The notes beneath the pieces are model-generated. The model made no database searches and was not told where the DNA came from. It worked only from the letters and a program-made list of their open reading frames with translations. A stretch of DNA of 42,704 nucleotides from Sandaracinaceae bacterium. Its GTDB lineage: Bacteria > Myxococcota_A > Polyangia > Polyangiales > Sandaracinaceae. Position 1 is the stretch's first letter; each line of letters begins with the position of its first letter. Made by a program: the position numbers and the translations under genes. The stretch lies in the NCBI GenBank assembly GCA_019637095.1, contig JAHBWG010000081.1, positions 1 to 42,704 on the forward strand, in the 5' to 3' direction. Shown in pieces: positions 13,333 to 40,484 of this stretch.

Positions 13333-13445
13333 GTCGCGCCGGGCGAGGCAGGTCAACCGCGTGATTTCGGGCGACGCGATGTCAGAAGTCGCGCAGGTGT
13401 GCGTCGGATCGGCGTCGTCATCACCACCGGCGGCAGCGGCCATGG

Positions 13446-15134: not shown

Positions 15135-16918
15135 CGCAACGAACTTTCCACGCCACGCTCCAGCTCACGCTCGAGAGCCCGCTGCTCGTCGGCGGCCACA
15201 CATCGCCGGCGAGCTACGTCGACGCGACGAGCGCGAAGCGAGCCGACTACGTGATTCCCGCCTCGGCGCTCCGCGGCGCGCTGCGCGAGGCGTGTACGCG
15301 CCTCGAGAACGCGGCGACCGACGGCGCCACTGCCGAGACGGCGGTAGGCCCGCTCACCTGCGAGCTCTTCGGCGCTCCGGGAGCCGACCGCCCGAAGCTC
15401 ACCGAGGGGACCGGCGACGACATCGCCATCCACTCGGGTGACGCGGGCGGGACGTCGGGCAAGCTGCGGGTGGGCGACGCGGTGGCGCGGGACACCATGC
15501 ACGCGGCCGTGCGGCACGGCGTGGGTGTCGACCGATGGACGGGCGCGGCGCGCCCGGAGGTCCACTTCCAGCGTGAGGTGGCAGGCGGCCCCGGCGACGT
15601 GCTCTCGGCCCCGCTCGAGTGTCGCGCGTCGGAGCCCGCGATCGATCTGTTGAAGCGGGCGATCGCGCTCGTCACCGGGGTCGGCAACAGCCAGAGCCGC
15701 GGGCTCGGCGCGGTGTGCGCGTCGATCGAGGCGACAACCGCACCCATCCCGAAGCGCTCGGTCGAGCTGCGCTCGAACCGCACGGAGCTGGCCGTTCGGA
15801 TCGTCGCGCGCGAGCCGCTGCTCCTGGGCGGGCTGCCTACGCCGACGAACGTGCGCGAGTCGCTCCCGTTCGTCAGCGGCGCGGTGCTGCGCGGCGCGAT
15901 CGCGAACGCGGCGCTCCGCTCGGGCATCGCCGAGACCTACGAGGACTTCCGGGCTGCGCTGGTGGACCCGCAGACGTGCATCCTGTTCTCGGATGCGCTC
16001 CCGGCGACGGAGAGCGAGCGCAATCTTCCCTTGCCCGCGCCGCGCTCGCGGCTCGCGTGCAAGCACGCGGGTGACAGAGACCACCGCAACGTGAACGGCG
16101 TCGCGCGCGACACGCTGGTCAGCGGCTGGCTCGCGGGCCTGCTCTTGCGCGAGGGGGGGACGGTGGCGCCGTTCGTCTGCCCGGTGTGCAGTCGTACGCT
16201 GACCAGCGCCAAGGGTTGGGTCGGGGGCGTCGACCCAGACAGGCGGGTGGTCACACGCCTCGGGCGTGACGTCGCGACCGGGGCGGCTTCGCCCGGCCTG
16301 CTCTACAGCACGGTGCAGATCGAGCCGACTGCGACGTTCGTGGGCACGGTCGCGCGGCTCGGCGATGCGGCCCGGCGGCTGCTGGCGCGGATCGACGCCC
16401 CGGTGCGGGTCGGTGGCTTGCGCAACCGCGGGCTCGGCACCGTCGAAGTGACGTTCGAGGAGAGCTCGCACCTCGGGCGCGGCGCGGTGCAGAGCCGGCG
16501 CGCCAAGCTCGCGAAGGCGGCCAAGCCGCTGCTCGACGTGGCGAGGGTGCTGGGCGTCGCGGAGGTCGCCGACGCGGATCGCTTGCTCGCCGTCGTCGCG
16601 CGGACCGACGTCGCGTTGCCGCCGGAGGCGGCGCCCGAGCGCGTCGGGCGCGCGCTCTTCGGCGAGGTGCCGTTCCGCGTGCTCGCGGTCGCGCAGGCGG
16701 CCGGCGTGCGCTCGGGCTGGTGCGAGCGCACGCCGGGGCCGCGGGCGCTCCGGCCGGTCGTGTCGGCCGGCTCGGCGTGGCTCTTCGCCGCCGAGGGTGA
16801 GGCTCCGTCGGACGAGTACCTCGCGCGGCTCGAGGTGGAAGGCGTCGGTGACGACCGCGAGCTGGGCCTCGGCCGGCTCGCGATCGCGCCGCATGCGCTC
16901 ATGGAGGGATGGGAGTGA
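15131..16918 (+). CDS. Fused RAMP (Cas7-like)/Csx10-like protein
   Basis: 595 aa with two RAMP domains in one chain. Domain 1 (about 1-210): PLLVGGHTSPASYVDAT...YVIPASALRGALRE, with D31 where Cas7 proteins carry the RNA-cleaving Asp, and GNSQSRGLG as its glycine-rich loop. Domain 2 (about 220-460): EPLLLGGLPTPTNVRESLPF with Asn instead of that Asp, then C310/H312 and C350-P-V-C353 as a likely zinc site, and VGGLRNRGLGTVEV. The order Cys-His, NGVARDTL, CxxC, LLYSTVQIE matches Csx10, the Cas5-like protein of type III-D. A C-terminal 130-residue extension ends GLGRLAIAPH. ATGA coupling to cas10. It probably caps the crRNA 5' tag and adds one cleaving backbone subunit. Confidence 0.82.
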   Translation: MTQRTFHATLQLTLESPLLVGGHTSPASYVDATSAKRADYVIPASALRGALREACTRLENAATDGATAETAVGPLTCELFGAPGADRPKLTEGTGDDIAIHSGDAGGTSGKLRVGDAVARDTMHAAVRHGVGVDRWTGAARPEVHFQREVAGGPGDVLSAPLECRASEPAIDLLKRAIALVTGVGNSQSRGLGAVCASIEATTAPIPKRSVELRSNRTELAVRIVAREPLLLGGLPTPTNVRESLPFVSGAVLRGAIANAALRSGIAETYEDFRAALVDPQTCILFSDALPATESERNLPLPAPRSRLACKHAGDRDHRNVNGVARDTLVSGWLAGLLLREGGTVAPFVCPVCSRTLTSAKGWVGGVDPDRRVVTRLGRDVATGAASPGLLYSTVQIEPTATFVGTVARLGDAARRLLARIDAPVRVGGLRNRGLGTVEVTFEESSHLGRGAVQSRRAKLAKAAKPLLDVARVLGVAEVADADRLLAVVARTDVALPPEAAPERVGRALFGEVPFRVLAVAQAAGVRSGWCERTPGPRALRPVVSAGSAWLFAAEGEAPSDEYLARLEVEGVGDDRELGLGRLAIAPHALMEGWE

Positions 16919-17322
16919 TGGCGAATCAGGCGGACATGGCGCGGCGTGCGCTCGATCTCTACAAGGAAGGGTCGTTGCGGAGCGCCTTCGTCGCGGTCGA
17001 CCCGACGCAGATGCGGACGGTGCTCGCGGCGTTCGAGCAGGCCGGCTCGCTCGAGGAGCAGGAGGTCGTCCTGCGCTACCAGGCGGCGCGGCTGCGCGAG
17101 AAGTGGGACGGCAAGCTCGTCGATCGCCTGCTCGAGCTCTGTCGCAAGGCTGGCGAAGGCGTCGAGCGCACGGCCGGTCAGGACGCCGACGAGCCCAAGG
17201 CGCGGGCGGCGGCGCAGCAGCTCGGCTTCATCGTGCGGATGCACAAGGTCGCCCACGAAGAGGAGGCCTCCCGGCGTTCGGGCGGCGGAGCGCCACAGGG
17301 CGACAAGAGGGGGCGGCGATGA
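16918..17322 (+). CDS. Cas11-like small subunit
   Basis: 134 aa, almost all helical and soluble (ARRALDLYKEGSLRSAFVAV, EEQEVVLRYQAARLREKWDG), with a low-complexity basic tail. Small helical proteins in this position between RAMP genes are the Csm2/Cmr5-type Cas11 subunits that bridge Cas10 and the Cas7 backbone. I chose the ATG at 16918, which shares a base with the preceding TGA (TGATG) and has GGAGGG at 16903-16908 at good spacing. An ATG at 16909 in frame would add three residues. The identification rests on size, helicity and position. Confidence 0.7.
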   Translation: MANQADMARRALDLYKEGSLRSAFVAVDPTQMRTVLAAFEQAGSLEEQEVVLRYQAARLREKWDGKLVDRLLELCRKAGEGVERTAGQDADEPKARAAAQQLGFIVRMHKVAHEEEASRRSGGGAPQGDKRGRR

Positions 17323-18110
17323 GCGATCCGTTCTTCCACGTCTTTCGTCATCGGACCCGCGTGCGCGGCGTGATCGAGTGCGTGAGCGCGTTGCGGATCG
17401 GCGTCGGCCGCTCGAGCGACGCGCTCGGCACCGACCTGCCAATCCTGCGCGACGCGCGCGGGGTGCCGGTGATCCCCGGCGCGTCGATCAAAGGTGTCGT
17501 GCGCTCGCAGGTCGAGGCGCTCCTGCGCGCGATGAATCAGTCGTGGGCCGGCGATCCGTTCGAGCAGGGCGGATCGGATGAGGAGCGCGCGCGCGCCGGG
17601 GAAGGGAGCGCCGCGAAGAAGGCGAAGGAGGTTCGCGACGACATCGCGAAGAACGCCGACGAGGCCAGCCGGATCTTCGGCCGTCCGAACCTCGCGTCGC
17701 ACGTGCGGTTCGCGGACGCGTACCCGGTGCCCGGCCAAGAGATCGCCGTCGAGGTGCGGGACGGGGTCGCGATCGACCGGGACCTCGGCCGCGTGTCCGG
17801 CGCGAAGAAGTACGACTTCGAGGTGGTGGCCGCGGGGTCGCGGTTCACGCTCGAGCTGATGATGGACGGCCTCGAGGAGCGCCAGGAGGGCGCGGTCGTC
17901 GCGGGGCTCGAGATGTTGAACGAGGGCTTCGCGCGCCTCGGGGGGTTCAAGTCGCGCGGGCTCGGGCTCGTGAAGCTCGTCGACCTCGAGGTGAGCGGCC
18001 TGCGCGGCCCGACGCTCGAGCGCTTCGAGCACACGTGGGACGAGTTCCACGGCTCGCGGCTCGCCGCGTTCCGAAGGTGGGCGGGCGAAGCGACGAAGGG
18101 AGCCGCCTGA
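17319..18110 (+). CDS. Cas7 backbone subunit (Csm3-like RAMP)
   Basis: 263 aa. The N-terminus follows Csm3: SALRIGVGRSSDALGTDLPI, LRDARGVPVIPGASIKGVVR. D39 in GTDLPILRD aligns with the catalytic Asp of Csm3 (D33), so this subunit should cut bound RNA at 6-nt intervals. A charged helical insert (about 80-115: EERARAGEGSAAKKAKEVRD) is followed by VRFADAYP, GVAIDRDLGRV and the glycine-rich loop LGGFKSRGLGLVKL. ATGA overlap with the small subunit and TGATG overlap with the next RAMP. Confidence 0.9.
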   Translation: MSDPFFHVFRHRTRVRGVIECVSALRIGVGRSSDALGTDLPILRDARGVPVIPGASIKGVVRSQVEALLRAMNQSWAGDPFEQGGSDEERARAGEGSAAKKAKEVRDDIAKNADEASRIFGRPNLASHVRFADAYPVPGQEIAVEVRDGVAIDRDLGRVSGAKKYDFEVVAAGSRFTLELMMDGLEERQEGAVVAGLEMLNEGFARLGGFKSRGLGLVKLVDLEVSGLRGPTLERFEHTWDEFHGSRLAAFRRWAGEATKGAA

Positions 18111-19051
18111 TGCACAAGCTGACGATCAACCGCGCGCGGATCGACCTCGCGTTCACTCCGAAGACGCCGCTGCTCGTCAAGAGCGGAGACAAGGGCGCGC
18201 AGCTCCTGCACCCCGAGCGGCCCGACCTGATGTGCGTCCGCACGCACCACGGCGCGCGCGGCGAGACGGTGTACGTCCCCGGCTCGAGCCTCAAGGGGGT
18301 GGTGCGCTCGGCCGCGGAGCGGGTGCTGCGCTCGCTCGAGCTCCCGTGCTGCGATCCGATGAACCACAAGTCGCGGTGCCACGACGAGGCGAGCAAGCGC
18401 GGCGACGCCATCGCGCGTGGGCGCGAGGCGGCTGGGTCGCACCCGATGGGCGAGGTCCACGGGATGCTGTGCCTCGCGTGCCGGTCGTTCGGCAGCCAGG
18501 CGATCGCGTCGCGCGTGTCGTTCGCGGACGCGTACCCCACCGAACAGAGCCACGCGCGCGCCAACCACACCGAGACGCGCAACGGCGTGAGCATCGACCG
18601 CATGACCGGGGGCCCGGCGCGCGGCAAGCTGTTCGAGCTCGAGGTCGTGGTCGGCGGTGACTTCGCGACGTCGATCCACTTCGCCAATTTCGAGCTCTGG
18701 CAGCTCGGGCTCGTCGGGGTGGTTCTCGCCGATCTCGACGACGGGTTCGTGCGGCTCGGCTCCGCGAAGACCCGGGGCCTCGGCCGCGTGTCGGTCGCGC
18801 TGAGCGAGCTGGTCGTCGACCAGATCGGTGCGGGCGGCGGCCTCGCCGGCGTCGGGACGCTCCGCTCCGACCTCGTCGACTCCTACGACCTGCTCGAGCG
18901 TGATCTGCGCGGCCCGTCGGGCGAGGCCCGCGTGTCGGCGCTGGGGCAGCGCCTCGTGTGGAAAGGCAACGAAGCTTGTCGCCGCGCGCTCGACGAGGTC
19001 GTGGAGCGGGCGTGGCCGACGCTCCTGAAGCGCCGTGGAGCGGCGGCGTGA
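18110..19051 (+). CDS. Cas7-type RAMP with cysteine-rich insert
   Basis: 313 aa. It has the RAMP core TPLLVKSGDKGAQLL and YVPGSSLKGVVRSAAERVL. D39 (ERPDLMCVR) falls where the catalytic Asp lies in the neighbouring Csm3-like protein. An insert carries C80, C81, C90 and then C121-L-A-C124, a likely structural zinc site as found in several Cas7 subunits. VSFADAYP, GVSIDRMTGG and VRLGSAKTRGLGRVSV complete the fold. It should be a second, non-identical backbone subunit. The operon encodes distinct Cas7 copies rather than one multimer, as is usual in III-D. Confidence 0.88.
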   Translation: MHKLTINRARIDLAFTPKTPLLVKSGDKGAQLLHPERPDLMCVRTHHGARGETVYVPGSSLKGVVRSAAERVLRSLELPCCDPMNHKSRCHDEASKRGDAIARGREAAGSHPMGEVHGMLCLACRSFGSQAIASRVSFADAYPTEQSHARANHTETRNGVSIDRMTGGPARGKLFELEVVVGGDFATSIHFANFELWQLGLVGVVLADLDDGFVRLGSAKTRGLGRVSVALSELVVDQIGAGGGLAGVGTLRSDLVDSYDLLERDLRGPSGEARVSALGQRLVWKGNEACRRALDEVVERAWPTLLKRRGAAA

Positions 19052-19935
19052 GGGACGGTCGTCGCGGCCCGCCGCGCGGCGGGGGTGAACCGGCGCCGGT
19101 GAACTACCGCGCCATCGCGCCTGCGCGCGAGGCGGTGCGGCTCGACAAGCCCGGGCACCACCGCCTCGAGAGCGGACGCATGAGCGGATGGATTGCGCTC
19201 GAGCTCACCGCGGTCGACGCGGTCCACGTCGGGGCCGGCGCGCCGGTGCTCTACGAGGAGCTCGCGCGCGCGACGGTCGTGACCTTCGACGAGGATGGGG
19301 GAGTGGCCCCGGTGATCCCGGGCGCATCCCTCAAGGGCGCCGTCCGCAACCTCGCGGAGCTGGTGCTCGGCGGCGGCTCGCCCGACGACCGCGACGTGGC
19401 GAGCACCGCGGTCGGGAGCCTCTTTGGCTACGTCGCGGGCAACGACACATTCCTCGGCCGGATCGGGTTCGACGACGCGCTCCCGTTGGCCGAAGAGCCC
19501 GCGATGGGCCTGACGAAGCTGCCTCACCCCTACCAGCCGCGTAAGGCAGGGGGGCGGCGGCTCTACGGGCCGCCCGTCGGGGCGCTCGCCAAGGAGGTGC
19601 CCTACGAGGTCACCGCGCCCAAGGAGCGGTTTGGAACGCGGCTGCACCTGGTGAACGTGGCGATGGGGGAGCTCGGGGCCGTGCTGACGTGCCTCGGTAT
19701 GGATGGGACGTTCCTGCTGCGCGTCGGCGGCGGGAAGTTCGCCGGGCTGGGGCGCGTGCGGGTGGAGGCCGTGGGTGGGTCGATCCGGCGCGGCTACGAG
19801 CGGCCGCGCCCGGAGCGCCTCGACGCCGAAGCGGCGCGCAAGCTCGTCGCCGAGGCGCTCGCGAAGCGCACGCTCGCCAAGGACGCCGAGCAGCCCCTGC
19901 GGCTCATCCGTCAGGCGCTCGGAGGTGCGCGATGA
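19048..19935 (+). CDS. RAMP superfamily backbone protein without the cleavage Asp
   Basis: 295 aa from GTG at 19048, which overlaps the preceding stop (GTGA). The N-terminal 45 residues (NYRAIAPAREAVRLDKPGHH, then GRMSGW) resemble the leader of TIGR03986-type RAMPs. The core has VDAVHVGAGAPVLYEELARA and VIPGASLKGAVRNLAELVL, with no Asp in the loop where the other two Cas7 proteins carry one, so it is probably a non-cutting subunit. It ends with GGGKFAGLGRVRVEAVGG and a helical tail. An upstream in-frame ATG at 18958 lies within the previous gene and is not preferred. Confidence 0.85.
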   Translation: MRDGRRGPPRGGGEPAPVNYRAIAPAREAVRLDKPGHHRLESGRMSGWIALELTAVDAVHVGAGAPVLYEELARATVVTFDEDGGVAPVIPGASLKGAVRNLAELVLGGGSPDDRDVASTAVGSLFGYVAGNDTFLGRIGFDDALPLAEEPAMGLTKLPHPYQPRKAGGRRLYGPPVGALAKEVPYEVTAPKERFGTRLHLVNVAMGELGAVLTCLGMDGTFLLRVGGGKFAGLGRVRVEAVGGSIRRGYERPRPERLDAEAARKLVAEALAKRTLAKDAEQPLRLIRQALGGAR

Positions 19936-20333
19936 TCGCCGGGCCTCGGAAGAAGGATCTGGTGCAGCGAGCGGAGCGGCTCGCTCAGCAGCTTGGCGAG
20001 TTCAAGACCCAGGGCAGCGGCGACCCGGTCGACCCGTCGCGGCTCGCCGAGGTGCAGCGGTTCGTGCAGGCGAACGGGACTGGTGATCTCGGCGAGATGC
20101 TCGATCGCCTGCCGGGCTCGTACCTGCGCAAGGCGTCGCGCAGCGCGGGCCCTCAGCTCGAGGAGGTCAAGCGGCGAGTCAAGCCGCTCGCGCGCGAGGT
20201 CGCCGACGCGGAGGAGCTCGCGTACTTGTTGGGTTGGGCGCGTCGGCTGATGACCCTGGCCGAGAAGACGGGGCTCGCGCGTGAGGGACGCGGCGGATCG
20301 CAGCAAGGAAGGCCGGGCCGTGGACGGCGGTGA
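19932..20333 (+). CDS. Second small helical subunit of the type III complex
   Basis: 133 aa, helical (PRKKDLVQRAERLAQQLGEF, ELAYLLGWARRLMTLAEKTG), with a Gly/Arg-rich end. It overlaps the preceding RAMP by ATGA. It is similar in size and style to the Cas11 candidate at 16918 but not obviously homologous by eye. It could be a second Cas11-like subunit or a Csx19-like III-D accessory. There are no catalytic motifs. Confidence 0.65.
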   Translation: MIAGPRKKDLVQRAERLAQQLGEFKTQGSGDPVDPSRLAEVQRFVQANGTGDLGEMLDRLPGSYLRKASRSAGPQLEEVKRRVKPLAREVADAEELAYLLGWARRLMTLAEKTGLAREGRGGSQQGRPGRGRR

Positions 20334-21804
20334 TCTGCCCGAGGATCTCGAGGCTCGGCGCGACGAGCTGGAACGTGAGTTCGACGAGGAGGCGAGAAAG
20401 CTCGGGTGCCAAGAGCCCGGCTTCGCGCGGGACTACGTCGAGCGCGCGCTCGAGACCGAGCTCGGCTGTCTCCGTTGGCGCACCCCCGACCATGCGCGCC
20501 CCGTCGACGTCGAGCTCCTCGTCTTGCTGTGCGGGATGAGCCCGCAACCGCTCTTGCTGAGTACGAGCTTCGTCAGGCCGCGACGTGTGATGCTCGTCGG
20601 CTCCGACCTTATCGATGGCAAGGGGCGTGAGGCCGTCGAGAAGGTAGACGAGCGCTTGCGCGAGGTCGAGCGAGCGCAGCGAGACCTTCGGCTGGAGCGC
20701 CTGGACCCTCACTTCATGGCGGCGAGCGATCCGGTCGCGGCGTATCGCTCTCTGGCCGACGCGATCCGGAGCACGCAGGCCGCGTATGGCATCGCGACCG
20801 ATCGGATCCTCGTGGACATCACCGGCGGCAAGAAGACGATGGTCGCCGCCGCGTACCTCGTTTGTTCGGAGCTCGGCCTGTCATCCTGCTACATCGACGG
20901 CAAGTACGACGAGCGCGTCCGGATGCCCCGACCCGGCACCGCCGTGTTCGAGCGCCTCGGAGACCCCATCGCCGCGTACCGGGTGCGTGAGCTCCGGCGC
21001 GTGGTCGACCTCGCGCGGCGCGGGCGATACGCCGCGGCGGAGGAGCTGCTCGGTGAGCTGCTGGAGCAGAACCTCGCCGTCGGTCGCGACGCGCTCGAAG
21101 GCGACCTTCGAAGACTGCGATGGCTCCGCGCGTGGTCTGAGCGACGGATGAGTGAGCTCGATGGAGCCCCCGATCCGCTCGGAGCGTTTGGGCGCGAGTG
21201 GGCGAAGCACGCAGCGAAGCGGTTCGACCTCGACGCGTGCGCGAGGGTCGACAAGTGCCGGCTGCTCTCGGCGTACACCCTCCACCGGCTCGTCCACGCG
21301 TCCGGCCTCTACCGGCAGGGCGACGCGCACGAGGCCTTCCTCATCGCCTTCTCCGCGTGTGACGCGCTCGCTGATGGCGTGGTCATGGCGTTGCTGGCGC
21401 ACAACCTGGTCAAGCGCGAGAAGGTCACGAGCTACCACGAGCTCCTCAGGAAGGTCGGCGGGGACGCGATCGCAGCCATCTTGGCCGACGGGAGCCCGCC
21501 TCCTGACAAGAAGGTGGAGGTCGCCGCCTCGTGGAAAGGGATCGGCCGCGACGTCCTCGAAGCCGCACTCGGTCATGAGACCGTCCGGCCGACTCGAAAC
21601 GTCTTGATGCACGGCGTCGGCGAGGTCGACGAGCGCGTGGTCCAGCGCTTCTTCGAGGTAGACGCGGGCGGGCGCTTCGTCGAGGCTGTCGAGCGCGCCT
21701 TTGGGCGGGCTTTCGACCTCGCGGCGGCCCGCGCATCGATCGAGACGACCGTCGGCGAGCTGGAGGATCTGCAGATCGCACGCTCCTTCGGAGCGGGGGC
21801 GTGA
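20320..21804 (+). CDS. CARF-HEPN ribonuclease (Csm6/Csx1-like)
   Basis: 494 aa from the GTG at 20320, which has a strong ribosome site AAGGAAGG at 20305-20312. An in-frame GTG at 20281 is less likely. The CARF domain is shown by VMLVGSDLIDG, a Rossmann start, and by VDITGGKKTM (D166-x-T-G-G-K-K), the ligand-binding loop of CARF proteins. The C-terminal HEPN domain has R426-N-V-L-M-H431, an R-x4-H RNase motif in a helical context. Expected role: bind cyclic oligoadenylate made by Cas10 and cut RNA non-specifically, slowing growth of infected cells. It is cotranslated with the complex subunits (14-bp overlap), so effector and sensor are made together. Confidence 0.88.
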   Translation: MDGGDLPEDLEARRDELEREFDEEARKLGCQEPGFARDYVERALETELGCLRWRTPDHARPVDVELLVLLCGMSPQPLLLSTSFVRPRRVMLVGSDLIDGKGREAVEKVDERLREVERAQRDLRLERLDPHFMAASDPVAAYRSLADAIRSTQAAYGIATDRILVDITGGKKTMVAAAYLVCSELGLSSCYIDGKYDERVRMPRPGTAVFERLGDPIAAYRVRELRRVVDLARRGRYAAAEELLGELLEQNLAVGRDALEGDLRRLRWLRAWSERRMSELDGAPDPLGAFGREWAKHAAKRFDLDACARVDKCRLLSAYTLHRLVHASGLYRQGDAHEAFLIAFSACDALADGVVMALLAHNLVKREKVTSYHELLRKVGGDAIAAILADGSPPPDKKVEVAASWKGIGRDVLEAALGHETVRPTRNVLMHGVGEVDERVVQRFFEVDAGGRFVEAVERAFGRAFDLAAARASIETTVGELEDLQIARSFGAGA

Positions 21805-22697
21805 GCGAGCTCGACGCGATCGTCGCTGGCGTACCTGCGTCGGTCACCTTGCGCGCCCGCTACAGAGCCTCGGAGACGGTCTCGCTCCCTGCGTTCCTCG
21901 GCGGCACGATGCACGGCGCGCTCGGGCACGCGCTCGACGCCGTGGGTGCGATCGGGCTCTTCGGTCCGCCGCCCGCCCCCGAGGACGCGCCGGGGTTCGT
22001 GCGGGCGGGCGTGCCGCCGCCCTGCGTGATGATCCCTCCCGCGATCGCGCCGGCTCGGGAGCTCGAGCCCGGCGCGCCGCTCGAGCTCGCGGTCTTGCTC
22101 GTCGCCCCGGACGAACGCCGCGTCGGCGTGCTGCTCGCGGCGCTCGAGGCGATGGGGCGTCGAGGGCTCGGGCGTGGTCGAGGCCGGCTCGCGCTCGAGC
22201 GCGTGGACGACGGTGGCGGCCGCCCCACATGGGAGGGGGGACGGGTCGTCGCGACCCCGGAAGTGGATGTGGCCCCGGCGGCGAGGGGAGATGGACCGTG
22301 GACCTTGCGTGCCACCACACCACTTCATCTCGTGCGGAGGGGCGAGCTCGTCCAGCACCCGCGCGCCGCCGAGGTCGTCGTCGCGGCGGCGCGCAGGCTC
22401 CTGTCGCTCGCGTGGACGTACGGGGTGGGGCCGACGTGTGACCTGCGTGAGCTCGAGCACGCCGCGAGCGAGCGGCTCGCCGCTGCTCCCGGGGGCGACT
22501 GGACTAGGCTTCATGGCGAGCGCTGGTCCGAGCGGCAGAGGCGGCTGCACCCGGTCGAAGGTGTCCTCGGAACGCTTCGGCTCGACCGTACGGCGGAGCC
22601 GTACGTCCCGCTCCTCGCACAGGCGCTTCGCTTCGGTGTCGGCAAGGGCACGGCGCTCGGCCTCGGTCGCCTGGAGCTCGTGCTAGGCGTGAGCTGA
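21801..22697 (+). CDS. cas6: Cas6 pre-crRNA endoribonuclease
   Basis: 298 aa, GTG start overlapping the preceding stop. The N-terminal FLGGTMHGALGHAL segment offers H38 or H43 as catalytic His candidates. The C-terminal domain has the Cas6 signature: RWSERQRRLHPVEGVLGTLRL, PLLAQALRFGVGKGTALGLG and a final strand. It should cut the array transcript 3' of the repeat hairpin, leaving ATTGAGAC as the 5' tag. It is the last gene of the cas operon. After it comes 49 bp with a new promoter. Confidence 0.92.
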   Translation: MSELDAIVAGVPASVTLRARYRASETVSLPAFLGGTMHGALGHALDAVGAIGLFGPPPAPEDAPGFVRAGVPPPCVMIPPAIAPARELEPGAPLELAVLLVAPDERRVGVLLAALEAMGRRGLGRGRGRLALERVDDGGGRPTWEGGRVVATPEVDVAPAARGDGPWTLRATTPLHLVRRGELVQHPRAAEVVVAAARRLLSLAWTYGVGPTCDLRELEHAASERLAAAPGGDWTRLHGERWSERQRRLHPVEGVLGTLRLDRTAEPYVPLLAQALRFGVGKGTALGLGRLELVLGVS

Positions 22698-22708: not shown

Positions 22709-22738
22709 TTGTCGGTGGCCGGCGTCTCACGATAGCCT
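22709..22738 (+). promoter_or_regulatory. Promoter of the sigma factor/Lon-TPR operon
   Basis: TTGTCG (22709-22714), an 18-bp spacer and TAGCCT (22733-22738), with 8 bp to the GTG at 22747. It is the best -35/-10 pair in the window. It shows that the sigma operon can be transcribed separately from the cas operon, probably as a leaderless mRNA. TTGTCG could instead be an ECF-type or autoregulated promoter element. Confidence 0.5.
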
Positions 22739-22746
22739 CGGCGGCG

Positions 22747-23295
22747 GTGGGCGTCAGCGGAGAGTGGCGACTTGCGCGCGATCGCGTCGTCGAGAGCGGC
22801 GGCGCCGCGGGCCCTCACTTCCGTACGTTCTACGAGCTCGCGGTGCGTGATGGCGTGAGGGTGCTCGCGTCCAAGTGGAAGTACTCGCCCGCCGAGGCGC
22901 GCGACCTCGTCCACGACGTCCTCGCGCACAAGCTCGTTCACGTGCTCGCCGCCGAGAGCCCGCGCGCGATGTTCCTCACGCTGTTGACGAATCATGCGGT
23001 CGGTCGGCACCGGCGCCGCCAGCGCGAGGCGAGCCTCGAGGCGCCCGACCTGCACGCGAGCGGCGACGCGCCGCCGGACCAGACCGCCGAGGCGCGCGAG
23101 CGGCTCGAGGAGGTCGAGGCGTGCTTCGCCGCGCTGGTGAGCCCGCGTGATCGGCGCGTGTTCTCCGCCGTGGCCGTGCTCGGCGTGCCGGTGCCCGAGG
23201 TCGCGCGCGCGGAGGCGCTCTCGGAGGCCAACGTGCATCAGATCGTGTCGCGGACGCGGCGTCGGTTGAAGGAGGGGCTCGATGAGGGTTCCTGA
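22747..23295 (+). CDS. ECF-like sigma-70 family factor
   Basis: 182 aa, GTG start 8 bp after a TAGCCT box. Region 2 is visible as YSPAEARDLVHDVLAHKLVH followed by AMFLTLLTNHAVGRHRRRQR, the usual core-binding and -10-recognition pattern of ECF factors. Region 4 is ALVSPRDRRVFSAVAVLG then VPEVARAEALSEANVHQIVS, an HTH, with a basic RTRRRLKEGL end. There is a linker between them and no extra domain. No classical membrane anti-sigma gene follows. Instead come two unknown soluble proteins and a Lon-type protease, so control by proteolysis is a reasonable guess. Confidence 0.85.
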   Translation: MGVSGEWRLARDRVVESGGAAGPHFRTFYELAVRDGVRVLASKWKYSPAEARDLVHDVLAHKLVHVLAAESPRAMFLTLLTNHAVGRHRRRQREASLEAPDLHASGDAPPDQTAEARERLEEVEACFAALVSPRDRRVFSAVAVLGVPVPEVARAEALSEANVHQIVSRTRRRLKEGLDEGS

Positions 23296-24022
23296 CCGCG
23301 CGTACCCGCTGCCCGATGGGCTGGTGGTCGAGCCGCGCGTCGTACCCGCGCGGCCGTGGCAGGCGCACGTGATCAAGCACCCCTTCGGGCTGGGCGCGAT
23401 GTGGGGTGCGTGGAGCGGCAGTCGGCGCTGGAACACGGAGGGCTGGGACCGCGTGGCGCCCCCGGTGCTCGAGGAGGGCGAGCGGGCGAGCCTGACCGCC
23501 GCGATCGGCGCGCTGCACGAGGGCGAAGCGCGCTGTCGCGCGGACAAGTTGGAGCGTACCGAGTACCGCGGGGAGCCGCGGCGAGAGCGCACGCCCTGCT
23601 ACGAGTGCGCGCTGGCCGAGCGGTGCGGCGAGATCACGCGGTCGGTCGGGGAGCGCTACGCGAGCTGGGTCGACCGGCTGTTGGCGGAGCTCGCTCCGCT
23701 GGAGGCGGTGCCGCGCAATGAGCTGGCGCTGCGCCTGCAGCGCGAGCTCGGCGCGCCGGAGGCATCGCTCCCGGTGGTGCTGTCGGTAGGGCGCGGCGCC
23801 GGCGGGGCCGGGGCGCGCGTGCAGGCGCCGAACGGGGTGCGGGTCGAGCTGGCGCTCGTGGGGCGCGATCGGCTCGAGTGGTGGACTACCTATCGCAAGC
23901 CGGCGCGGACGGCCAACGACCGGATCAGCGCGCTGCTCGACGTGATGCAGCCACTGCCGAGCCTGCCGCTGTCAGGAATGGCGGTGGTCCCGCGTCGATG
24001 GTGGCGAGGAGACTCGCGATGA
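23282..24022 (+). CDS. Unknown protein with C-x2-C-x5-C motif (246 aa)
   Basis: The ATG at 23282 has a strong AAGGAGG site (23269-23275) inside the end of the sigma gene, 14-bp overlap. It is rich in Trp and Arg in the first 60 residues (HPFGLGAMWGAWSGSRRWN). C85 and then C106-x2-C109-x5-C115 (TPCYECALAERC) could bind zinc, or an Fe-S cluster like the C-x2-C-x5-C of Cas4/AddB proteins, though no nuclease motifs were recognised. The C-terminus has VELALVGRDRLEWWTTYRK and an SLPLSGMAVVPRRWW end. Because it sits between the sigma factor and the protease it is a candidate anti-sigma or sensor. No family was recognised. Confidence 0.7.
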   Translation: MRVPDRAYPLPDGLVVEPRVVPARPWQAHVIKHPFGLGAMWGAWSGSRRWNTEGWDRVAPPVLEEGERASLTAAIGALHEGEARCRADKLERTEYRGEPRRERTPCYECALAERCGEITRSVGERYASWVDRLLAELAPLEAVPRNELALRLQRELGAPEASLPVVLSVGRGAGGAGARVQAPNGVRVELALVGRDRLEWWTTYRKPARTANDRISALLDVMQPLPSLPLSGMAVVPRRWWRGDSR

Positions 24023-25086
24023 CGACGTGTGCGCTCACGGAGATGATCGAGGCCGCCCTCGAGGCGTGGGACGTGCCGCCGGACGCGCTCGACGCGCACG
24101 CGCTCGTGGTGGAGCGAGTCGGCGACGCGCTGCGCGCCGAGCTCGGGCTGCCGCGCGGGTGGTGTCGCTGGCTGGAGCGTCGGACCTCCGAGGAGCTGGG
24201 GAAGGTGATCGAGGACGCGGTCGAGCTGCTCGCAGAGGCTCCGGCACCGAGCGAGCCGGGCGTCTCGGACGAACTCGTGGTCGCGGCGGTGTCCCGGGAC
24301 CGCACCGAGAGCACGCGCCTCGGGGTGGAGCGGGCGTGCCTCGCGACGGGGCGCGCGTTCACGGCGGTGCCCGGCTTCGAGCGGTTGGTCGCGGCGCAAC
24401 AGGAGCTCGACGCGTGGCTCGCTCGCACCGTGACGCGTGACGAGGTGGAGCAGGCGCTCGGGATCCGGCGGGCGTTGCTCGCGCCCCCGGCCTGGACGGA
24501 CGTGCTCCCAGAGGGCGAAGGCGACGCCATCGTCGAGGAGGTCGTCGAGGGGCTCGCGCCACGCCGGATGGAGCCTCCGTCCGCGGCGGTGGTGGTCGCA
24601 TACGTGCAAGACGGCTTGCACAAGGGCTGGGTCGAGGCGGCAGCGGCGAGCGACCCGTGGTTCGCGCAGGAGCTGGCCGAGACGGTGGCGCTCTTGCGTG
24701 GGGAGGGCGAGCCGATCTCGCTGGTCGCGCGCCAATGGGAACGCCAGTCGCGGGAAGCGCCGGTGGAGATCGAGGTCCCCGTCGCGGCTGCGGCGGACGA
24801 TGGCGCGCCACGGGCGGCATCGATCGAGCTCCTGCTCGGGGTGCTGTCGCCGACGGACGCGGCGGCGCGGATGACGGTGGCGGGCGAGCGGGTGACGTTG
24901 CACGCGGTCGCTGGTGAGACGCCGCTCGTTCACGTCTCGCTCGGCGGCGTCGCGGCGACCGACGAAGGCGAGAAGTGGCGGCTCGAGGTGCCGTGGAGCG
25001 ACGGCGACGTCGGCGAGCTCGTGGTCGAGGACGCCGCCGGCCGCCGCTTCGCGTGCCCGCTGAGGCTCACGCCGGGGCCCGAGTGA
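24019..25086 (+). CDS. Unknown two-part protein (355 aa)
   Basis: The ATG at 24019 overlaps the preceding stop (ATGA). A helical N-terminal half (about 1-260) starts TTCALTEMIEAALEAW and includes VVVAYVQDGLHKGWVEAAA. A short acidic/Ala linker follows (VEIEVPVAAAADDG), then a beta-rich C-terminal domain of about 85 residues (MTVAGERVTLHAVAG, VHVSLGGVAATDEGEKWRLE). The exposed linker between two compact parts would suit a protease substrate, in the way CalpT is cut by CalpL, but this is analogy only. Its stop overlaps the GTG of the Lon-TPR gene. Confidence 0.7.
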   Translation: MTTCALTEMIEAALEAWDVPPDALDAHALVVERVGDALRAELGLPRGWCRWLERRTSEELGKVIEDAVELLAEAPAPSEPGVSDELVVAAVSRDRTESTRLGVERACLATGRAFTAVPGFERLVAAQQELDAWLARTVTRDEVEQALGIRRALLAPPAWTDVLPEGEGDAIVEEVVEGLAPRRMEPPSAAVVVAYVQDGLHKGWVEAAAASDPWFAQELAETVALLRGEGEPISLVARQWERQSREAPVEIEVPVAAAADDGAPRAASIELLLGVLSPTDAAARMTVAGERVTLHAVAGETPLVHVSLGGVAATDEGEKWRLEVPWSDGDVGELVVEDAAGRRFACPLRLTPGPE

Positions 25087-26843
25087 CGGAGCGCGCGTCG
25101 GTCGACGCGCTGATCCGAGGCGCGTTCGACGTCGACCGTCCGCTTGCGCAGCGCCGCCTCGACCTCGATCGGCTGCGGGAGCAGGCGTGCGCACACCCGC
25201 CCGACGAGCGCGCGCGTGCGCGGATCCGAGCGCTGGGTGGCGCGCTCGACCAGGCGCTCGCGGTGGAGTGGCGTCCAGGTGTTGGAGAAATGCACGTCGC
25301 ATTGACGAGCCCGTGCGGGCCGTCGACCGGCCGGCTCACCGTGCGGCGCGGCGGGATGGCCCATCGGGTCGAGGTCGGCGACGGCATCGGCACCTCGGCC
25401 AGCATGCAGGTCCGCGCGGCGTTCGACGCGGCCGCGGCGGCGGTGGCGCGCGCGGGCCGCGGGGTCCCGGAGGCGCGGGCGCGCGGGCACGTCGTCGAGT
25501 TGTGGACGCCCGATGGGACGCGCGTGGACGGGCGCTCGCTCGGGCTCGCGGCGGCGGCCGCGTTCGTCTCGTGCTGGTCGGGCCGCGCGCCGCGCGCCGA
25601 GGTGGCCGCGAGCGCCGGGGTCACGCGGGAGGGCGGGCTCGTCGCCGTCGACGGGATCGAGGACAAGGTGCGCGCGCTGCGCGAGCGCTACCCCTACGTG
25701 CGCGCGCTGCTCGTCGCCGCGGACCAAGTGCCCGCGCTCGACGCGATCGATGCGGTCGCGCTCACGCGCGCGGCGACGCTCGGGGGCGCGCTCGAGGTGC
25801 TCGGGCTCGACGTTCGCGCGATCGAAGGCGCGCCGCTTCCGTCCGCGCAGCGCAAGCGCATGCTCGAGGAGCTCGCGACGATCCAGGTGCCGAGCTACGA
25901 CGCGGGCACGTGGCGCGAGCACGCGATGCGGGCGCGCATTTGCGCGAGCGGCGGGTCGGCCTCGGAGACGACGCGCGCGCTCGGGTGGGCCGCGCTCTTT
26001 CATCTTCACGCAGGCGACCTCGACGACGCGAACGGCATCGCGCACGAGCTGCGCGGGCGCGAGCTCGACGCGCTCTCCGACGGCGCGCGCGTCTGGGTGC
26101 GCATCGTCCTGGCGACGACGGCGATCGACCGGGACCGTCACGACGACGCCGTGGCGCTCGCGCGCGAGGCGCTCGCCGACGCGCAGACGCTCCGCGGGGA
26201 CGACCGCGCCGAGCTGCTCGGGCGCGCGTACGGCACGCTCGGCCGGGCGCTGGTCCACGCTGGGCGGAGCGAGCAAGCCATCGAGCCGCTCGCGGCGGGG
26301 GCGGCGCACCATCGCGAGCACCTCGGGCGCGAGCTCGCGCGTTCTGCGATCTACCTCGCGACCGGGCTGCGACGCGCCGGGCGGCTCGACGAGGCGCTCG
26401 ACGCGATCGGCGAGGCGTTCGCCGCGATCGACGCGCACGCCCACGAGGAGGAGAGCGCGGTTTCGTTTCTCTACGCGCGCTACGAGCGAGGCCGCGTGCG
26501 CTTCGCGCGCGAGGAGCTCCGCGCTGCGCGCGACGACCTGCTCGCGCTGGTGGACGCGCAGGGGACTCACACGTACCCCGCGCTCGGGGCGCTCCGCTAC
26601 CTGGCCGCGATCGAGCAGCGCCTCGGCGAGGGCGACGGACGGCGCTGGCTCGAGGACGCGTGCGAGGTGGCCGAGGCCGAGTCGACCGGGGGCGCGCTCC
26701 GGCGCGTGGCCGCGGCGGCGGCCGGTGAGGCGCTCTTGCGCGGCGGCGCGCCGCCCGGGCTCGAGCCCCGGCTGCGCGCGGTCTGGATTCGTGTGATGGG
26801 CGAAGGTGCCGGAGAAGCCGCCCTCGACCGGTTGGTCTACTGA
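25083..26843 (+). CDS. Lon-like (S16) Ser-Lys protease fused to TPR repeats
   Basis: 586 aa, GTG start overlapping the preceding stop. Residues about 70-230 have the Lon protease fold pattern: VDGRSLGLAAAAAFVSCWSG gives catalytic S152, and GGLVAVDGIEDKVRALRERY gives K195. The 43-residue S-K spacing equals that of E. coli Lon (S679/K722). There is no AAA+ ATPase domain. Residues about 300-580 are TPR-like helical repeats (AYGTLGRALVHAGRSEQAIE, ATGLRRAGRLDEALDAIGEA). There is no SAVED or CARF domain, unlike CalpL. The TPRs presumably carry the signal or bind the substrate. It is last in the sigma operon and convergent with a CARF-HEPN gene 18 bp away. Confidence 0.82.
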   Translation: MTERASVDALIRGAFDVDRPLAQRRLDLDRLREQACAHPPDERARARIRALGGALDQALAVEWRPGVGEMHVALTSPCGPSTGRLTVRRGGMAHRVEVGDGIGTSASMQVRAAFDAAAAAVARAGRGVPEARARGHVVELWTPDGTRVDGRSLGLAAAAAFVSCWSGRAPRAEVAASAGVTREGGLVAVDGIEDKVRALRERYPYVRALLVAADQVPALDAIDAVALTRAATLGGALEVLGLDVRAIEGAPLPSAQRKRMLEELATIQVPSYDAGTWREHAMRARICASGGSASETTRALGWAALFHLHAGDLDDANGIAHELRGRELDALSDGARVWVRIVLATTAIDRDRHDDAVALAREALADAQTLRGDDRAELLGRAYGTLGRALVHAGRSEQAIEPLAAGAAHHREHLGRELARSAIYLATGLRRAGRLDEALDAIGEAFAAIDAHAHEEESAVSFLYARYERGRVRFAREELRAARDDLLALVDAQGTHTYPALGALRYLAAIEQRLGEGDGRRWLEDACEVAEAESTGGALRRVAAAAAGEALLRGGAPPGLEPRLRAVWIRVMGEGAGEAALDRLVY

Positions 26844-28059: not shown

Positions 28060-28177
28060 CCGGCCCGTTCGGGATCGCGGTGCAGCAGCCTCGGCGCTGT
28101 CAGGTTCGGGGCGCTGCGTACGTCATGGCGCTGTCGCGGCTCCGCGCGAGGGCGACGGGAGGGAGGTGACGGTCCTC

Positions 28178-28270
28178 ATGGGAAAGCGAATCGCGATCGA
28201 GGTCGGCGCGGCCGTCCTCCGTGCCCTCGTGAACGTGCTCGTGGACGTCCTTCGCAAGAAGGCCCGCTGA
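28178..28270 (+). CDS. Possible 30-aa cationic amphipathic peptide
   Basis: The ATG at 28178 starts a 30-aa ORF, MGKRIAIEVGAAVLRALVNV and on, ending DVLRKKAR. Its hydrophobic core of about 20 residues is flanked by Lys/Arg at both ends, the profile of small membrane-acting toxins such as TisB or Ldr. GGGAGGGAG lies 12 bp upstream, just before an in-frame GTG at 28166 that would add four residues. It is alone between divergent promoters and the Uma2 gene. It is very short and could be chance. Confidence 0.35.
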   Translation: MGKRIAIEVGAAVLRALVNVLVDVLRKKAR

Positions 28271-30652: not shown

Positions 30653-33600
30653 TCAGTTCACGTAGACGATGACGGGTGCGGCGAGCGGATGGACCTCGAA
30701 GTCCGCTGCGAGAATGCGTCGAGCCTGCTCCGCCGCGTCGAGGCGGAAGTCGAGCTTGGGCGCAAGGGTTGGCGCGAGGAAGCTCAGCCCGTGGTCGAGC
30801 CGCACGCGGAGCGTGCTCTCGTCGCTCCAGCGCAGGACGAGCTCGCGGTGGTGCGGGAGCTGGTGTTTGCTCTGTACGTCGACCGTGGGGCGCCCACCGA
30901 CCTGCGCGAGCAACGCCTCGAGCACTCGCCGCTGATCCGCTTCCTCGCGCCAGTCGTGCGCGAAGGAGTCCGGGTACTTGTCGGTCGTCGCGACTGCGGC
31001 GGTGCGGAGTCGGATGACCGTGTGCTCGTCGAGCCCGCCCGGGTCGTCTCGTAGCGCGCGCAGCACCTCGTAAAGCACGCGCGCGGCGACCGGACGGTGG
31101 ACGTATCGGTCCGTGTATTCGACCTCGACGAGGCGAGCCTTCCCTGCGAGTCGATCGCGCAGGTTCGTCGCGCGCCGCGTCAGGTGCGACCAAAACCGGC
31201 CGCCCAGCGCGGCGACGGCGCCGTTGAGTTGGCCGGTGATCGCGATCTCCACGAACTGGTTGGGGACCGGCTTGAGGAGCTTCCTCGCGCTCGCCTCCCG
31301 CAGCTCGAGGGGGGGAAGCGGGCCGTCGAGGCGAGCGCCGACGTAGCGCGCGTTCTCGCCCGCCTCCCCGGGCCCGGCCCAGCGCTCGTTGGGGGCGAGG
31401 CCGACCGGATCGGTGGCCGCCCACCGCGCGGACCGCGGGCCTTCGGCCTCGAGGACCAACCAGGCCTCGCCGACTCGCGCCCCATCCCCCGCGCTCAGCG
31501 CGACGTGGAAGCCGTCGGACTCCAGGCGATGCGCGAGGGTGTTCGCCTCGTCCCAGGGGAGCTCCGCGTGCGCGCGCTCCGGGACGACGACCGTGACCTC
31601 GACGCCTTCGCCCCGCAGGTTGCGCAGGGTGTCGCGCAGGCTCCAGGCGTCGTAGTCCCAGTCCCCCGTCGCGCCCCCGAGGTGCACGCGGACGCGCTCG
31701 ATCCCGGCGCGCTGCCGATGCGCGAAGAGCGCGCCGCGCAGGGACAGGGTCTCGAGACGGGTCTCGGGGCCGAAGGCCTGGAGCGCCTCGGGGAGGCGCA
31801 GCGCGTCCACCAGATCTTCGCTGAGCGCCTCACGCGCGCGATGGCGATCGAGCCGCTCCACGTGGGCCTGCGTGTCGTAGGAGAGCAAGCACCCGTGGCA
31901 GGCCGCGTCGCACCGCTGCGGACAGTCGAGCAAGGCGCGTGCATCTTGGAGGAGCGCGTGGAGGTCGGAGGCCACCGTCGCGACGTACCCAGCCCCCCCT
32001 TGCGCCGCGTCGAAGAGCACGATGCTCGGGCGCGCCAGCCCCTCTCCGTGCGCCGAGCGACCGATCGCCCAGCCGATCTCGCGCGGATCCACGCCGAGCC
32101 GCCGGGCGAGGGCGTCGCGCAGCGCGACCGCGATGGAGACGCACTGCGTGTGCTCTTCGATCGGATGGGCCGTCCTCGGGTCGTCGAGCTGCAGTTCGAC
32201 CACGTCCGTGCGCGTCGAAGCGCCGAGCCGCAGGTGCTCGACGACGCCGAAGTCGCCAGCGGCACCCTCGCAGAGGGTTCCGCGCTCCCCACCACCCCGG
32301 AGCCGGCGGTGATTGCGGAAGGTCGCGGAGATCGTCGCCGGACCGGAGGCTTGTGACTCTGCGTAGCCGCAATGGAGGCAGACGGCGTACCCGCCCCCGT
32401 GCTCGCCGGCCGAGTGATGGTGGACGTACCCGTCGGGATCGTACCGGAAGCGACCGGCGCGAGGGTCCGCGAGGACCTGCCACGGGGCCCCACCCGCGCT
32501 GATCCAGGAGGGCTCGCGTCGAACGTACCGCTCCTTGGAGAGGTCGTTGTCCGGGCGCGCGGCGATCGCGGTGGCGAAGCCCGCAGGCTCGAGGTATCGG
32601 TGGGCGGCGAGCCTCGAAGAACCGCAGCTCGCGCAATGCTCGACGCGCTGAGCGCGGTCCCCTGCCTTTCCGCACTCCTTGCAGAGCCAGGCGTACCGAA
32701 GGCTCTGCACCTCTCGATACTCGCCGTTGGCCGTCGTCGGGAGCTGCCAGCTCAGCGTGACCCCGCGTGACTCGTAGACCATCCCGTCGATCACGACGCC
32801 GCTGCCCGGTGCGTAGTCGAGCAACGCCCGCTCGACCTGGCGCGACGGGAAGCCACGGGCCCGCTGGAACCCCTCGTCGCGCTCGGGCTCGGGGCTCGGC
32901 GGGTTCCGCTCGGCCTCGATCTGCTCCATCGTGAGGTAAACGAACGGGACGACGTGCAGCGGGAAGCCGTACGATGGCAGGTAGCCGCCGCTCGCGAGCG
33001 TCCGCAGGAGGTACTCCTCGCGCATGCGGCGGACCTGGAGCCAGATGGCCCGCTGGGCGGGCTGCGCTCGCTGGCCGGCCTCCGGGCGACCGCCCGCGCG
33101 ATCGAGCTCGGCGGTGAGGGCCTCGTGCTCGTCGAGCCAAGCGTCGGCGATCCGTCGGAGCTGCCGGCGCGCATCTTCGAGCCGAGGCCCAGGGCGACCA
33201 GCGAGCGCCGTGCCGCGCGTGACGAGCTCGAGGCCCGAGGCGACGTGCGAGTCGTCGCTCGCGTCGTCGTCGAGCCAGCGCAGGTAGTCGGCGAAGCGCG
33301 GCTCGGCGGGCGGCGAGGCGAGGAAGAAGGCGTCGCAGCGCATGGTGTGCGCGTCCGCCGCGCCGATCGAGCGCAGGAACGCGGCGAGCAGGACCGAGTG
33401 GACGTGGCGCTGCACGATGCGCTCGGAGCCGAGAGAGACCGCCGGGACGTGCACGGGGTGCGTGAACGGCCAGCTGGGGTTGGCGAACACGGCGGCGCCG
33501 TGGGGAGAGCCCTGGCACAGCGTGAGGACGGTGGCGCGCGCTTCACCTCGGCGCCCGGCGCGGCCTGCACGCTGTTGGTAGTTCGCGGGCCCGGGCGGGA

Positions 33601-39900: not shown

Positions 39901-40280
39901 TGGCACGCGAGCGTGCGGTGGTAGTAGCTACGGTCCTTGCGCACGAGGACGTCGCCACAGCGCCAGTGATCCAGGCCCCGGCGCACCATGTCGTAGAGGC
40001 GAGCGCCGACGCCGTGAGGCCATCCAGTGGCCTCGAAGATGGGCGACCAGCTCCACGGGCCGCCCTCGTGGGTGCGACAGAAGTGGGTGGCAGCGAAGAG
40101 GCAGAACGCGGCGGCGACGTGGCCGGGCTCGTGGTCGCCGGTGGCGAAGGCGACCCGCAGGAGGCGCTGCAGCTCGTCCATCGTGGCCTCGTCGACGCGA
40201 TAGCGCCAGAGCGGCGCCCTCTCGTCGCGGCCGACTCCCGAGCTCTCGCGCACCTGGCGCAGGAGGGTCGTGATGCTCAT
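36897..40280 (-). CDS. druH: DruH-like protein (STY4851/ECs_5259 family), Druantia type III
   Basis: 1127 aa from ATG at 40280 with GGAGG about 6 bp before. The N-terminal 200 residues match my recollection of the STY4851/ECs_5259 family: EGGPWSWSPIFEATGW, then RLYDMVRRGLDHWR, HRTLACQGGLPLRLLTGENA and LSEYFTRLLRAAEEY, later NPEWRARVPLRIDDTVADRL. The middle is a long run of beta-rich repeats (for example RVVASVGAEDIGIAEVTGG, LFLRGRLRT-type strands) and the C-terminal 300 residues are helical. There is no enzymatic motif. DruH with DruE defines Druantia type III. Its molecular role is not known. The 4-bp overlap with the 51-aa ORF upstream and 14 bp with druE make one operon. Confidence 0.78.
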   Translation of the reverse strand: MSITTLLRQVRESSGVGRDERAPLWRYRVDEATMDELQRLLRVAFATGDHEPGHVAAAFCLFAATHFCRTHEGGPWSWSPIFEATGWPHGVGARLYDMVRRGLDHWRCGDVLVRKDRSYYHRTLACQGGLPLRLLTGENANGLSEYFTRLLRAAEEYEQPAHELAPLLDRSLPSTLRNDLVHELAATLVDAIVALRRSTSDDEDPVAALDARNPEWRARVPLRIDDTVADRLLTVLLRAPRSSGRAQRADPIEIRLVLRTTGTSFAFERAAILEPAVAESALASMLGLQDLPPFVHLALLLPDGTRRWVATATRYQGTDRFALRPTTPPRPIHRGPGLFGAVRVVASVGAEDIGIAEVTGGAPIADDLPWVLEGGRLREHNAVRAFGSARAAGDAMLLVLPCEGALASDETATVTAIAEGLEGGRRLVQLSGTATWTNGDDRCRFATSAREDETSPFSLRGRLRTFGFAGAEVWMGPPKLVRLHDGCQRSFPSDRVEWRPERERDWRGGLENAHGNVLLRVREEGETIFRTRATIVPSDLTVERATPARGAGVLTVASAHLRGLRATLAEGLIAESRPLAPGRFSVELKTAEAPPTTVQLRLLLREGAEATLDVACPIQFRRFVGFDGRSLPANELRAADRLGTVRARSIEDRHERISMEGRVTISVNGRVDRGEWHLLAELPDRGHHLYELPLDRVERSVATMLASSPCLDASVELRMTALGGTPRDASPSLHVGRYDTQLEPVRGPDGTPRSVRLSEASVALLGPQGLDRIQVDARPLDRPDEPPVPFGRVGQSEWEIPAGLTPGPWLVLGWQDDWARLRPLLLTIRATTAETVETLDELRAAVRIEDSTRRTEALDQLLVTMANDYGHERWATVLSFARTLGTLPATTFDVIRRVAARPNAAVVFALHTHDLPAAWSSLEELPFLWAALPLRSWVRGARRLHDWIRATPAVTELYGSPAAATSALLGEPLGALQRRAPFLEIVRAVVSLSLPGLDAEALGRIAAYAAIGHQQWEPAAAQMRARSATRRWPEPALDDYVAQRAVSLARRFSCAPSRPFEEAVLLAPALVAAVSVLGETLPEEALFAVRRVADFDPDWFQHAHCLSLAGMIAAELARDPEAFDVTH

Positions 40281-40432: not shown

Positions 40433-40484
40433 GCGTCTCCGACGCGCGAGCGCCCCCGGACTGACAGGCGACCTTTCGAAACGC

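Follow-up and report, generated by a model that had tools for sequence, protein, structure and literature searches.

A Lon-TPR protease, a predicted anti-sigma factor, and an ECF-type sigma factor as a probable switch of a myxobacterial defence island

The coordination of many bacterial immune systems is poorly understood. Two described systems combine a protease, an anti-sigma substrate, and an extracytoplasmic function (ECF) sigma factor. In CalpL/CalpT/CalpS from Sulfurihydrogenibium (PMC11417357), the protease is of the Lon type and free of AAA+, its cA4-activated cleavage frees the sigma factor, and the set lies near type III CRISPR. In Craspase/CASP (Csx29, Csx30, Csx31, CASP-sigma; PMC10028731, PMC11106740), a protease carrying tetratricopeptide repeats (TPRs) is accompanied by an ECF sigma factor, a sigma inhibitor with a loop in which it is cleaved, and two other proteins. 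In Myxococcus xanthus, the ECF sigma factor DdvS and its anti-sigma factor DdvA are described as controlling a type III-B CRISPR operon, with an unknown signal (PMC11237760, PMC4374960). Here, a stretch of 42,704 nucleotides from a Sandaracinaceae bacterium (assembly GCA_019637095.1, contig JAHBWG010000081.1; referred to as the window) was analyzed. Downstream of its type III-D-like cas genes it carries a cassette of four tandem genes (22747-26843, + strand). Their products are an ECF-type sigma factor, two proteins of 246 and 355 aa (the latter referred to as p355), and a Lon-type protease with TPRs. Together they probably act as a protease-gated switch by which the sigma factor controls a defence island. 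At the level of sequence, this reading is supported by the cassette itself, the catalytic pair of the protease, the architecture of p355, and a promoter element together with its placement.

Organization and distribution of the cassette

The genes for the sigma factor (22747-23295, +), the 246-aa protein (23282-24022, +), p355 (24019-25086, +), and the Lon-TPR protein (25083-26843, +) overlap successively by 14, 4, and 4 bp. The cassette starts 50 bp past cas6, which ends at 22697, and is preceded by a sigma-70-like promoter TTGTCG-N18-TAGCCT (22709-22738, +). The arrangement given in the initial annotation, four genes overlapping by 4-14 bp with their own promoter after cas6, was confirmed. 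Judged by eye, a TAnnnT sequence is also present near upstream of the sigma start in other cassettes. The sigma protein (182 aa, GTG start) is kept across cassettes. It scored 47.1 bits against TIGR02937 (cut-off 42.9, E value 1.9e-12) and slightly under the cut-off against Pfam Sigma70_r4_2, and is a sigma-70 family protein of ECF architecture, in line with its earlier description as ECF-like.

The 586-aa protease has a catalytic domain at residues ~57-250 and TPRs at ~260-586, with no AAA+ domain. Pfam Lon_C was matched with 22.5 bits (cut-off 21.1), followed by TPR, and a search of the PDB matched Lon domains at an E value of 3e-7. The residues S152 and K195 are separated by 43 residues, the same spacing as in Lon, and both are invariant in 10/10 cassette homologues and in 7/7 more diverged Lon-TPR proteins (17/17). 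With its Ser-Lys pair at Lon spacing, the protein fits peptidase family S16 (Lon). Neither SAVED nor CARF was found in it by Pfam or PADLOC at the sequence level, where only Lon and TPR were matched. The fold, the spacing of 43, and the lack of SAVED and CARF had all been noted in the initial annotation and were borne out. No Lon-TPR relatives were found among the viral contigs, plasmids, or phages searched.

The second gene varies in length. The C-x2-C-x5-C motif pointed out earlier in the 246-aa protein is present, but it is not conserved in relatives, and the protein itself shrinks to 177 aa in one relative and to only 39-47 aa in three others. Family-model searches (including Pfam and PADLOC) gave no match for the 246-aa protein, and comparison with PDB sequences gave weak, unconvincing matches only. 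Its AlphaFold model had a pLDDT (predicted local distance difference test) of 44, and no conclusion was drawn from it. A reading of some cassettes as three-gene sets without the second gene was rejected, because an open reading frame (ORF) of 39-47 aa sits at that place.

Among 290 genomes searched from the class, ten had p355 relatives. Complete sigma/p355/Lon-TPR cassettes numbered ten, in nine Myxococcota genomes (one with two cassettes), with the same gene order throughout; the cassette of G185 is cut off by the end of its contig, with the sigma gene beyond the covered sequence. A scan of genome contigs with a single peptide pattern gave five loci only. With its gene order repeated across nine genomes, the four-gene set is not a product of chance.

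The distribution also bears on whether the cassette is the effector arm of the adjoining type III CRISPR system, as the comparison with CalpL/T/S in the initial annotation would suggest. Target recognition would then activate the Lon protease, with cyclic oligoadenylate or a CARF partner as the link. The cassette does directly follow cas6, Cas10 retains GGDD, and two CARF proteins are encoded close by. However, the protease has no match to SAVED or CARF, and five of the nine cassette genomes have no member of the type III RAMP family. In the other 4/9 the family is present, sharing a contig with the cassette in just two; across the order, 30/184 genomes have it. The genomes are drafts of 87-98% completeness, so single absences are soft. 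With five of nine genomes free of detectable type III CRISPR, the cassette is not a CRISPR-dependent CalpL/T/S system, and the sites described below suggest the reverse direction of flow; we regard the effector arm as very unlikely. The earlier suggestion of an independent protease-sigma signalling system is supported, with the same set found in nine genomes, five of them without a type III RAMP gene. Two outcomes had been named as jointly fatal to the initial interpretation, namely that the set would occur without CRISPR and that S152 and K195 would not be conserved. The first is true and the second false. In G144 the cassette has a type III-D operon on one side and a Pycsar system on the other, and some cassettes lie among ordinary genes, e.g. 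in G212.

The AlphaFold2 model of p355 (mean pLDDT 76) is helical at ~1-165, with the helices themselves spanning 2-162, and at 189-244, followed by a linker at 247-268 (pLDDT <50) and a C-terminal beta-sandwich at 269-355. To the eye, residues 189-244 resemble the domain with which classical anti-sigma factors inhibit ECF sigma factors. The ten p355 sequences share scattered invariant residues and otherwise little. Among the invariant positions (10/10) are Ala256-Ala257 (codons 24784-24789, +), located in the disordered and length-variable linker, a candidate scissile or docking site. In a fold comparison with VIA-align (residues 267-353), the C-terminal domain gave a generic immunoglobulin- or carbohydrate-binding-module-like beta-sandwich with a best Z of 7.3, within the range of chance folds. 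The comparison covers the C-terminal beta domain only; with regard to homology to CalpT, the p355 profile matched no PDB chain.

Diverged p355-like domains also adjoin a sigma gene on G212 contig 110, on G185 contig 54, and in G061. The domain of G061 is followed by a hydrophobic stretch that is predicted to span the membrane. On G212 contig 110 (L030:15410-19678), a sigma gene, the gene for a p355-like protein whose acidic tail is very long, and a caspase gene (PF00656, E value 1e-39) stand in tandem, the caspase gene overlapping and taking the place of Lon. Upstream on the opposite strand of this locus, a 1,715-aa protein is encoded that is CHAT-like by appearance. With its invariant Ala-Ala linker and its homologues beside sigma genes, p355 is most likely an anti-sigma factor cut by the Lon-TPR protease, perhaps at the linker Ala-Ala. 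The initial annotation had already pointed to the linker of the 355-aa protein as a place to look for cleavage.

A promoter element at the cassettes

Just upstream of p355, a bipartite element TGTCAG-N17-CGT(C/T) is present in 10/10 cassettes at identical spacing, eight times with CGTC and twice with CGTT. In the window it occupies 23970-23996 (+). In the four-gene cassettes it lies within the end of the second gene, and in three cassettes the 39-47-aa ORF retains that stretch. Inside the element two rare codons are used in 10/10 cases, Ser TCA (2-7% of Ser codons) and Arg CGT (4-13% of Arg codons), which indicates a constraint on the DNA and not on the protein alone. Conservation of the 246-aa C terminus as protein only was rejected on the same grounds.

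The spacing was examined by scanning TGTCAG-Nk-CGTC with k = 5-30 on the ten cassette contigs or stretches (396 kb). The scan gave 37 sites at N17 and 5 at N16, with 0-2 at any other k; scrambled controls (n = 2,159) had a mean of 0.85 and a maximum of 18. The 37 sites include those of the discovery set, and ~29 are independent of it. With gene coordinates from a simple codon-based caller, 37/42 of the N16/N17 sites were intergenic, compared with 12% of all bases, and 28/42 lay at most 100 nt upstream of a gene start on the same strand, compared with 3% of random positions. Strict genome-wide hits fell on the cassette contig in 10/21 cases in G060, 8/25 in G144, and 4/5 in G261. The 9.25-Mb genome of the window has 10 sites, five of them within the 42.7-kb window (P ~2e-6 under a base-composition model). 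As a sequence motif, the element is an ECF-type promoter at the cassette's own operon.

A family profile of the Lon-TPR protein revealed seven more distant proteins in other genomes and, on G185 contig 54, a partial match adjoining the sigma gene and the p355-like gene. At least five of the seven diverged loci encode a sigma factor, a 440-590-aa protein, and then an 840-1,140-aa protein with a C-terminal Lon-TPR part, and in G200 proteins of 349 and 586 aa are separate and unfused. By eye only, the N termini of this clade (clade B) resemble anti-sigma domains. In G048, G032, G223, and G200, TGTCAG-N16/17-CGTC directly precedes either the Lon fusion or the gene at the anti-sigma position, and in G141 the CGTT form is found at this place. 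A spacing scan over the seven loci gave 10 sites at N16, 8 at N17, and 0-2 elsewhere.

Genes behind the promoter sites

The other four sites of the window precede genes of defence systems and of small proteins. The site at 13380-13405 (+, N16) is located 85 nt upstream of cas10, the first of the type III-D-like cas genes (13491-22697, +), which encode Cas10 with GGDD, a csm3/cas5 fusion, Csx7-type RAMPs, a 507-aa CARF protein, and Cas6. A further N16 site, found by motif scan at 40441-40466 (-), belongs to a Druantia type III operon with druH (36897-40280, -; PADLOC DruH3, E value 2.6e-72) and the helicase gene druE (30653-36910, -; PADLOC DruE3, 2060 bits). Between this promoter and druH lies a 51-aa leader ORF (40432-40277, -), whose stop overlaps the druH start. 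Druantia III adjoins a tRNA-Leu gene.

The remaining two sites precede very small genes. The N17 site at 28098-28124 (+) is upstream of a 30-aa ORF with a Shine-Dalgarno-like sequence, which encodes the cationic amphipathic peptide MGKRIAIEVGAAVLRALVNVLVDVLRKKAR (28178-28270, +). In an unrelated genome another tiny ORF directly behind the element encodes MSKILVKVLPIVIAVVVKEVVVPLIRDAMERRRRRVLATA (L157:17790-17912); both peptides are hydrophobic with a cationic C terminus and are possibly membrane-acting effectors. The N16 site at 4838-4863 (-) is upstream of a gene for a 75-aa glycine-rich (glycine-zipper), putatively membrane-inserting protein (4479-4706, -). This protein is related to one encoded at L113:5611-5874 (-), with 45% identity and an E value of 6e-4, and the two small proteins adjoin type III CRISPR loci in different genomes.

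Outside the window, a sixth site of the genome is positioned 10 nt upstream of a four-gene operon (TPR, 537-aa, cas1-like, and cas2-like genes) on contig C17 (L161:1-9000). The last two genes share 70% and 69% identity with their cas1- and cas2-like counterparts in the type III locus of G165; the names cas1 and cas2 come from sequence appearance and position, not from a profile search. Contig C17 also has 25 or more copies of a 37-nt CRISPR repeat identical to that of the window, and its array and that of the window (7-679) are very probably one array that was split in the assembly. The other four sites of the genome, three inside called genes (one an apparent ATP-synthase gene) and one without a close downstream gene, are probably chance hits.

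Sites in other genomes precede an AAA/UvrD-like helicase gene, a type I restriction gene (HsdR; PADLOC REase_I), and the type III-D operon in G144, a type III-B operon in G163 (first gene cmr1-like by appearance), and SbcCD-like genes, named from sequence, in the diverged loci of G141 and G165. The picture in G060 is more mixed, with sites before ClpP, PP2C, and cREC genes and many small proteins without known function. The ClpP and PP2C phosphatase targets and the small proteins, together with cassettes amid ordinary genes such as that of G212, would fit an ECF system for general or envelope stress, placed in variable regions by happenstance, whose targets are not specific to defence. Set against this are the type III operons of three genomes, cas1-cas2, Druantia III, HsdR, and the SbcCD-like genes among the targets, as well as the Pycsar and type III-D systems that flank the G144 cassette, and a general stress role thus appears quite improbable.

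Several further features were observed near the sites and cassettes. Two ClpP genes of G060 stand behind the element (L092:2632-3216 and L099:13750-14331); further degradation of a cut anti-sigma factor would need a ClpP-like protease. An AAA/UvrD-like helicase of ~450 aa is paired with a ~430-520-aa protein near cassettes or sites in three genomes (L094:950-3922, L141:2-2681, L160:1855-4630), possibly an unnamed defence pair. Proteins of ~480-590 aa with a similar-looking N terminus (PLPLAELG...L) also recur there (L156:14728-16233, L160:321-1796, L115:15555-17171, L154:17561-19000, L027:8985-16074), with no convincing Pfam match where scanned. In the window, a CARF-HEPN gene faces the cassette, and near the CRISPR array a gene matching PADLOC RtcR (CARF_AAA_HTH) models (5289-6824) adjoins the gene for a 1,155-aa protein kinase (9849-13316, -).

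Proposed switch and comparison with known systems

In the switch that we propose, the housekeeping-type promoter would provide the sigma factor and the 246-aa protein, and p355, as the anti-sigma factor, would keep the sigma factor inactive. An infection or stress signal, most simply received by the TPR half, would activate the Lon-type Ser-Lys protease, which would cut p355 in the Ala-Ala linker that joins the sigma-binding helices to the beta domain at the C terminus. The freed sigma factor would then read TGTCAG-N16/17-CGTC promoters. The one upstream of p355-Lon would reset the switch and yield more protease; the others would turn on the type III cas10 operon, the cas1-cas2 genes associated with the same repeats, Druantia III, and the two small membrane-active-looking peptides. 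Binding of the sigma factor by p355, cleavage of p355, reading of these promoters by the sigma factor, and the trigger are all inferred. Because sites precede cas10 and cas1-cas2, flow would run from sigma to CRISPR. With probable sigma sites before CRISPR, spacer-acquisition, and Druantia genes, the four genes have the look of a master switch that turns on a block of immunity genes. In its boldest form, the proposal is that a phage-derived signal at the TPR half leads by a single proteolysis to transcription of the whole island, with an exchangeable protease (Lon-TPR, anti-sigma/Lon fusions, or caspase). We advance this form tentatively, at slightly less than even confidence.

Several results weigh against the switch or narrow it. 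For p355 no family match and no PDB chain were found by sequence or profile search, and Pfam gave nothing convincing over all members. Its structure is a single-chain prediction, and comparison of the clade B N termini with p355 by hhalign detected no homology. The promoter motif was derived from the ten cassette sites before testing, and these are not independent evidence; in the window itself the spacing is N16 three times and N17 twice. Furthermore, 20 type III regions (302,882 bases) from genomes without a detected cassette contained five N17 sites and one N16 site, and those inspected were upstream of the cas operon and in the same direction. The promoter class is therefore older or wider than the cassette, and the element may be read by further sigma factors, possibly ones similar to DdvS with its DdvA. 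It could even be that the genes are a protease/anti-sigma/sigma system of which the cassette controls something else, another ECF sigma factor or regulator being the reader. The sites before type III operons in cassette-less genomes, and the ~10 strict hits in each such genome, would be expected in that case. However, the element stands at the same place in all ten cassettes, and hits cluster on the cassette contigs of G060, G144, and G261, which makes a reader from outside the cassette rather unlikely. The cassette-less sites weaken the view that only this sigma factor reads the element. They do not weaken the view that it is one of the readers, which is based on the presence of the element inside all ten cassettes.

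If the protease-gated switch is correct, a protease-released sigma factor would be an input that turns on CRISPR and other systems, and not a CRISPR output. TGTCAG-N16/17-CGTC would be a promoter code for finding new members of such defence regulons, among them tiny peptides overlooked by gene finders. The element is of the same bipartite ECF promoter type as that of ECF41, TGTCACA-N16-CGTC (PMC3426412), with the -10 part CGTC in common and TGTCAG as the -35 part here. ECF41 sigma factors have a fused C-terminal regulatory domain, whereas the sigma factor described here has 182 aa. As described in PMC11237760 and PMC4374960, DdvS/DdvA likewise is an ECF sigma/anti-sigma pair over a myxobacterial type III operon. 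In contrast to the cassette, no dedicated protease is described for it there.

Compared with CalpL/T/S, the cassette has TPRs instead of SAVED and an extra gene between sigma and p355. The Lon Ser-Lys dyad is shared, as is the place near a type III CRISPR locus in the window. SAVED or CARF on the protease and a regular linkage to type III CRISPR are lacking; the set also occurs without CRISPR, and its sites point from the sigma factor to the CRISPR operon. For this direction there is a partial precedent in the CASP-sigma motifs at cas1 in the Craspase locus (PMC10028731). Craspase shares the logic but relies on a CHAT protease and gRAMP, whereas the protease domain here is Lon and not the CHAT of a TPR-CHAT protein, and there is neither gRAMP nor evident RNA-guided activation; the NCBIfam gRAMP (Cas7-11) models scored far under the cut-off for the RAMPs of the window. 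One Craspase ortholog cuts Csx30 at AIAA|SSEK (PMC11106740), which resembles the p355 linker motif LAA(S/A)T. The likeness is a lead only; the linker motif is conserved in p355, and the Csx30 cleavage site is not conserved. By the features tested at the sequence level (no SAVED, gRAMP, CHAT, or obligate CRISPR), the cassette is outside both systems. Its logic of protease, anti-sigma factor, and sigma factor is most likely like theirs, with the direction relative to CRISPR reversed, and the CalpL and Craspase cascades would thereby be linked to a wider, CRISPR-independent protease/anti-sigma/sigma family in which the protease has been exchanged.

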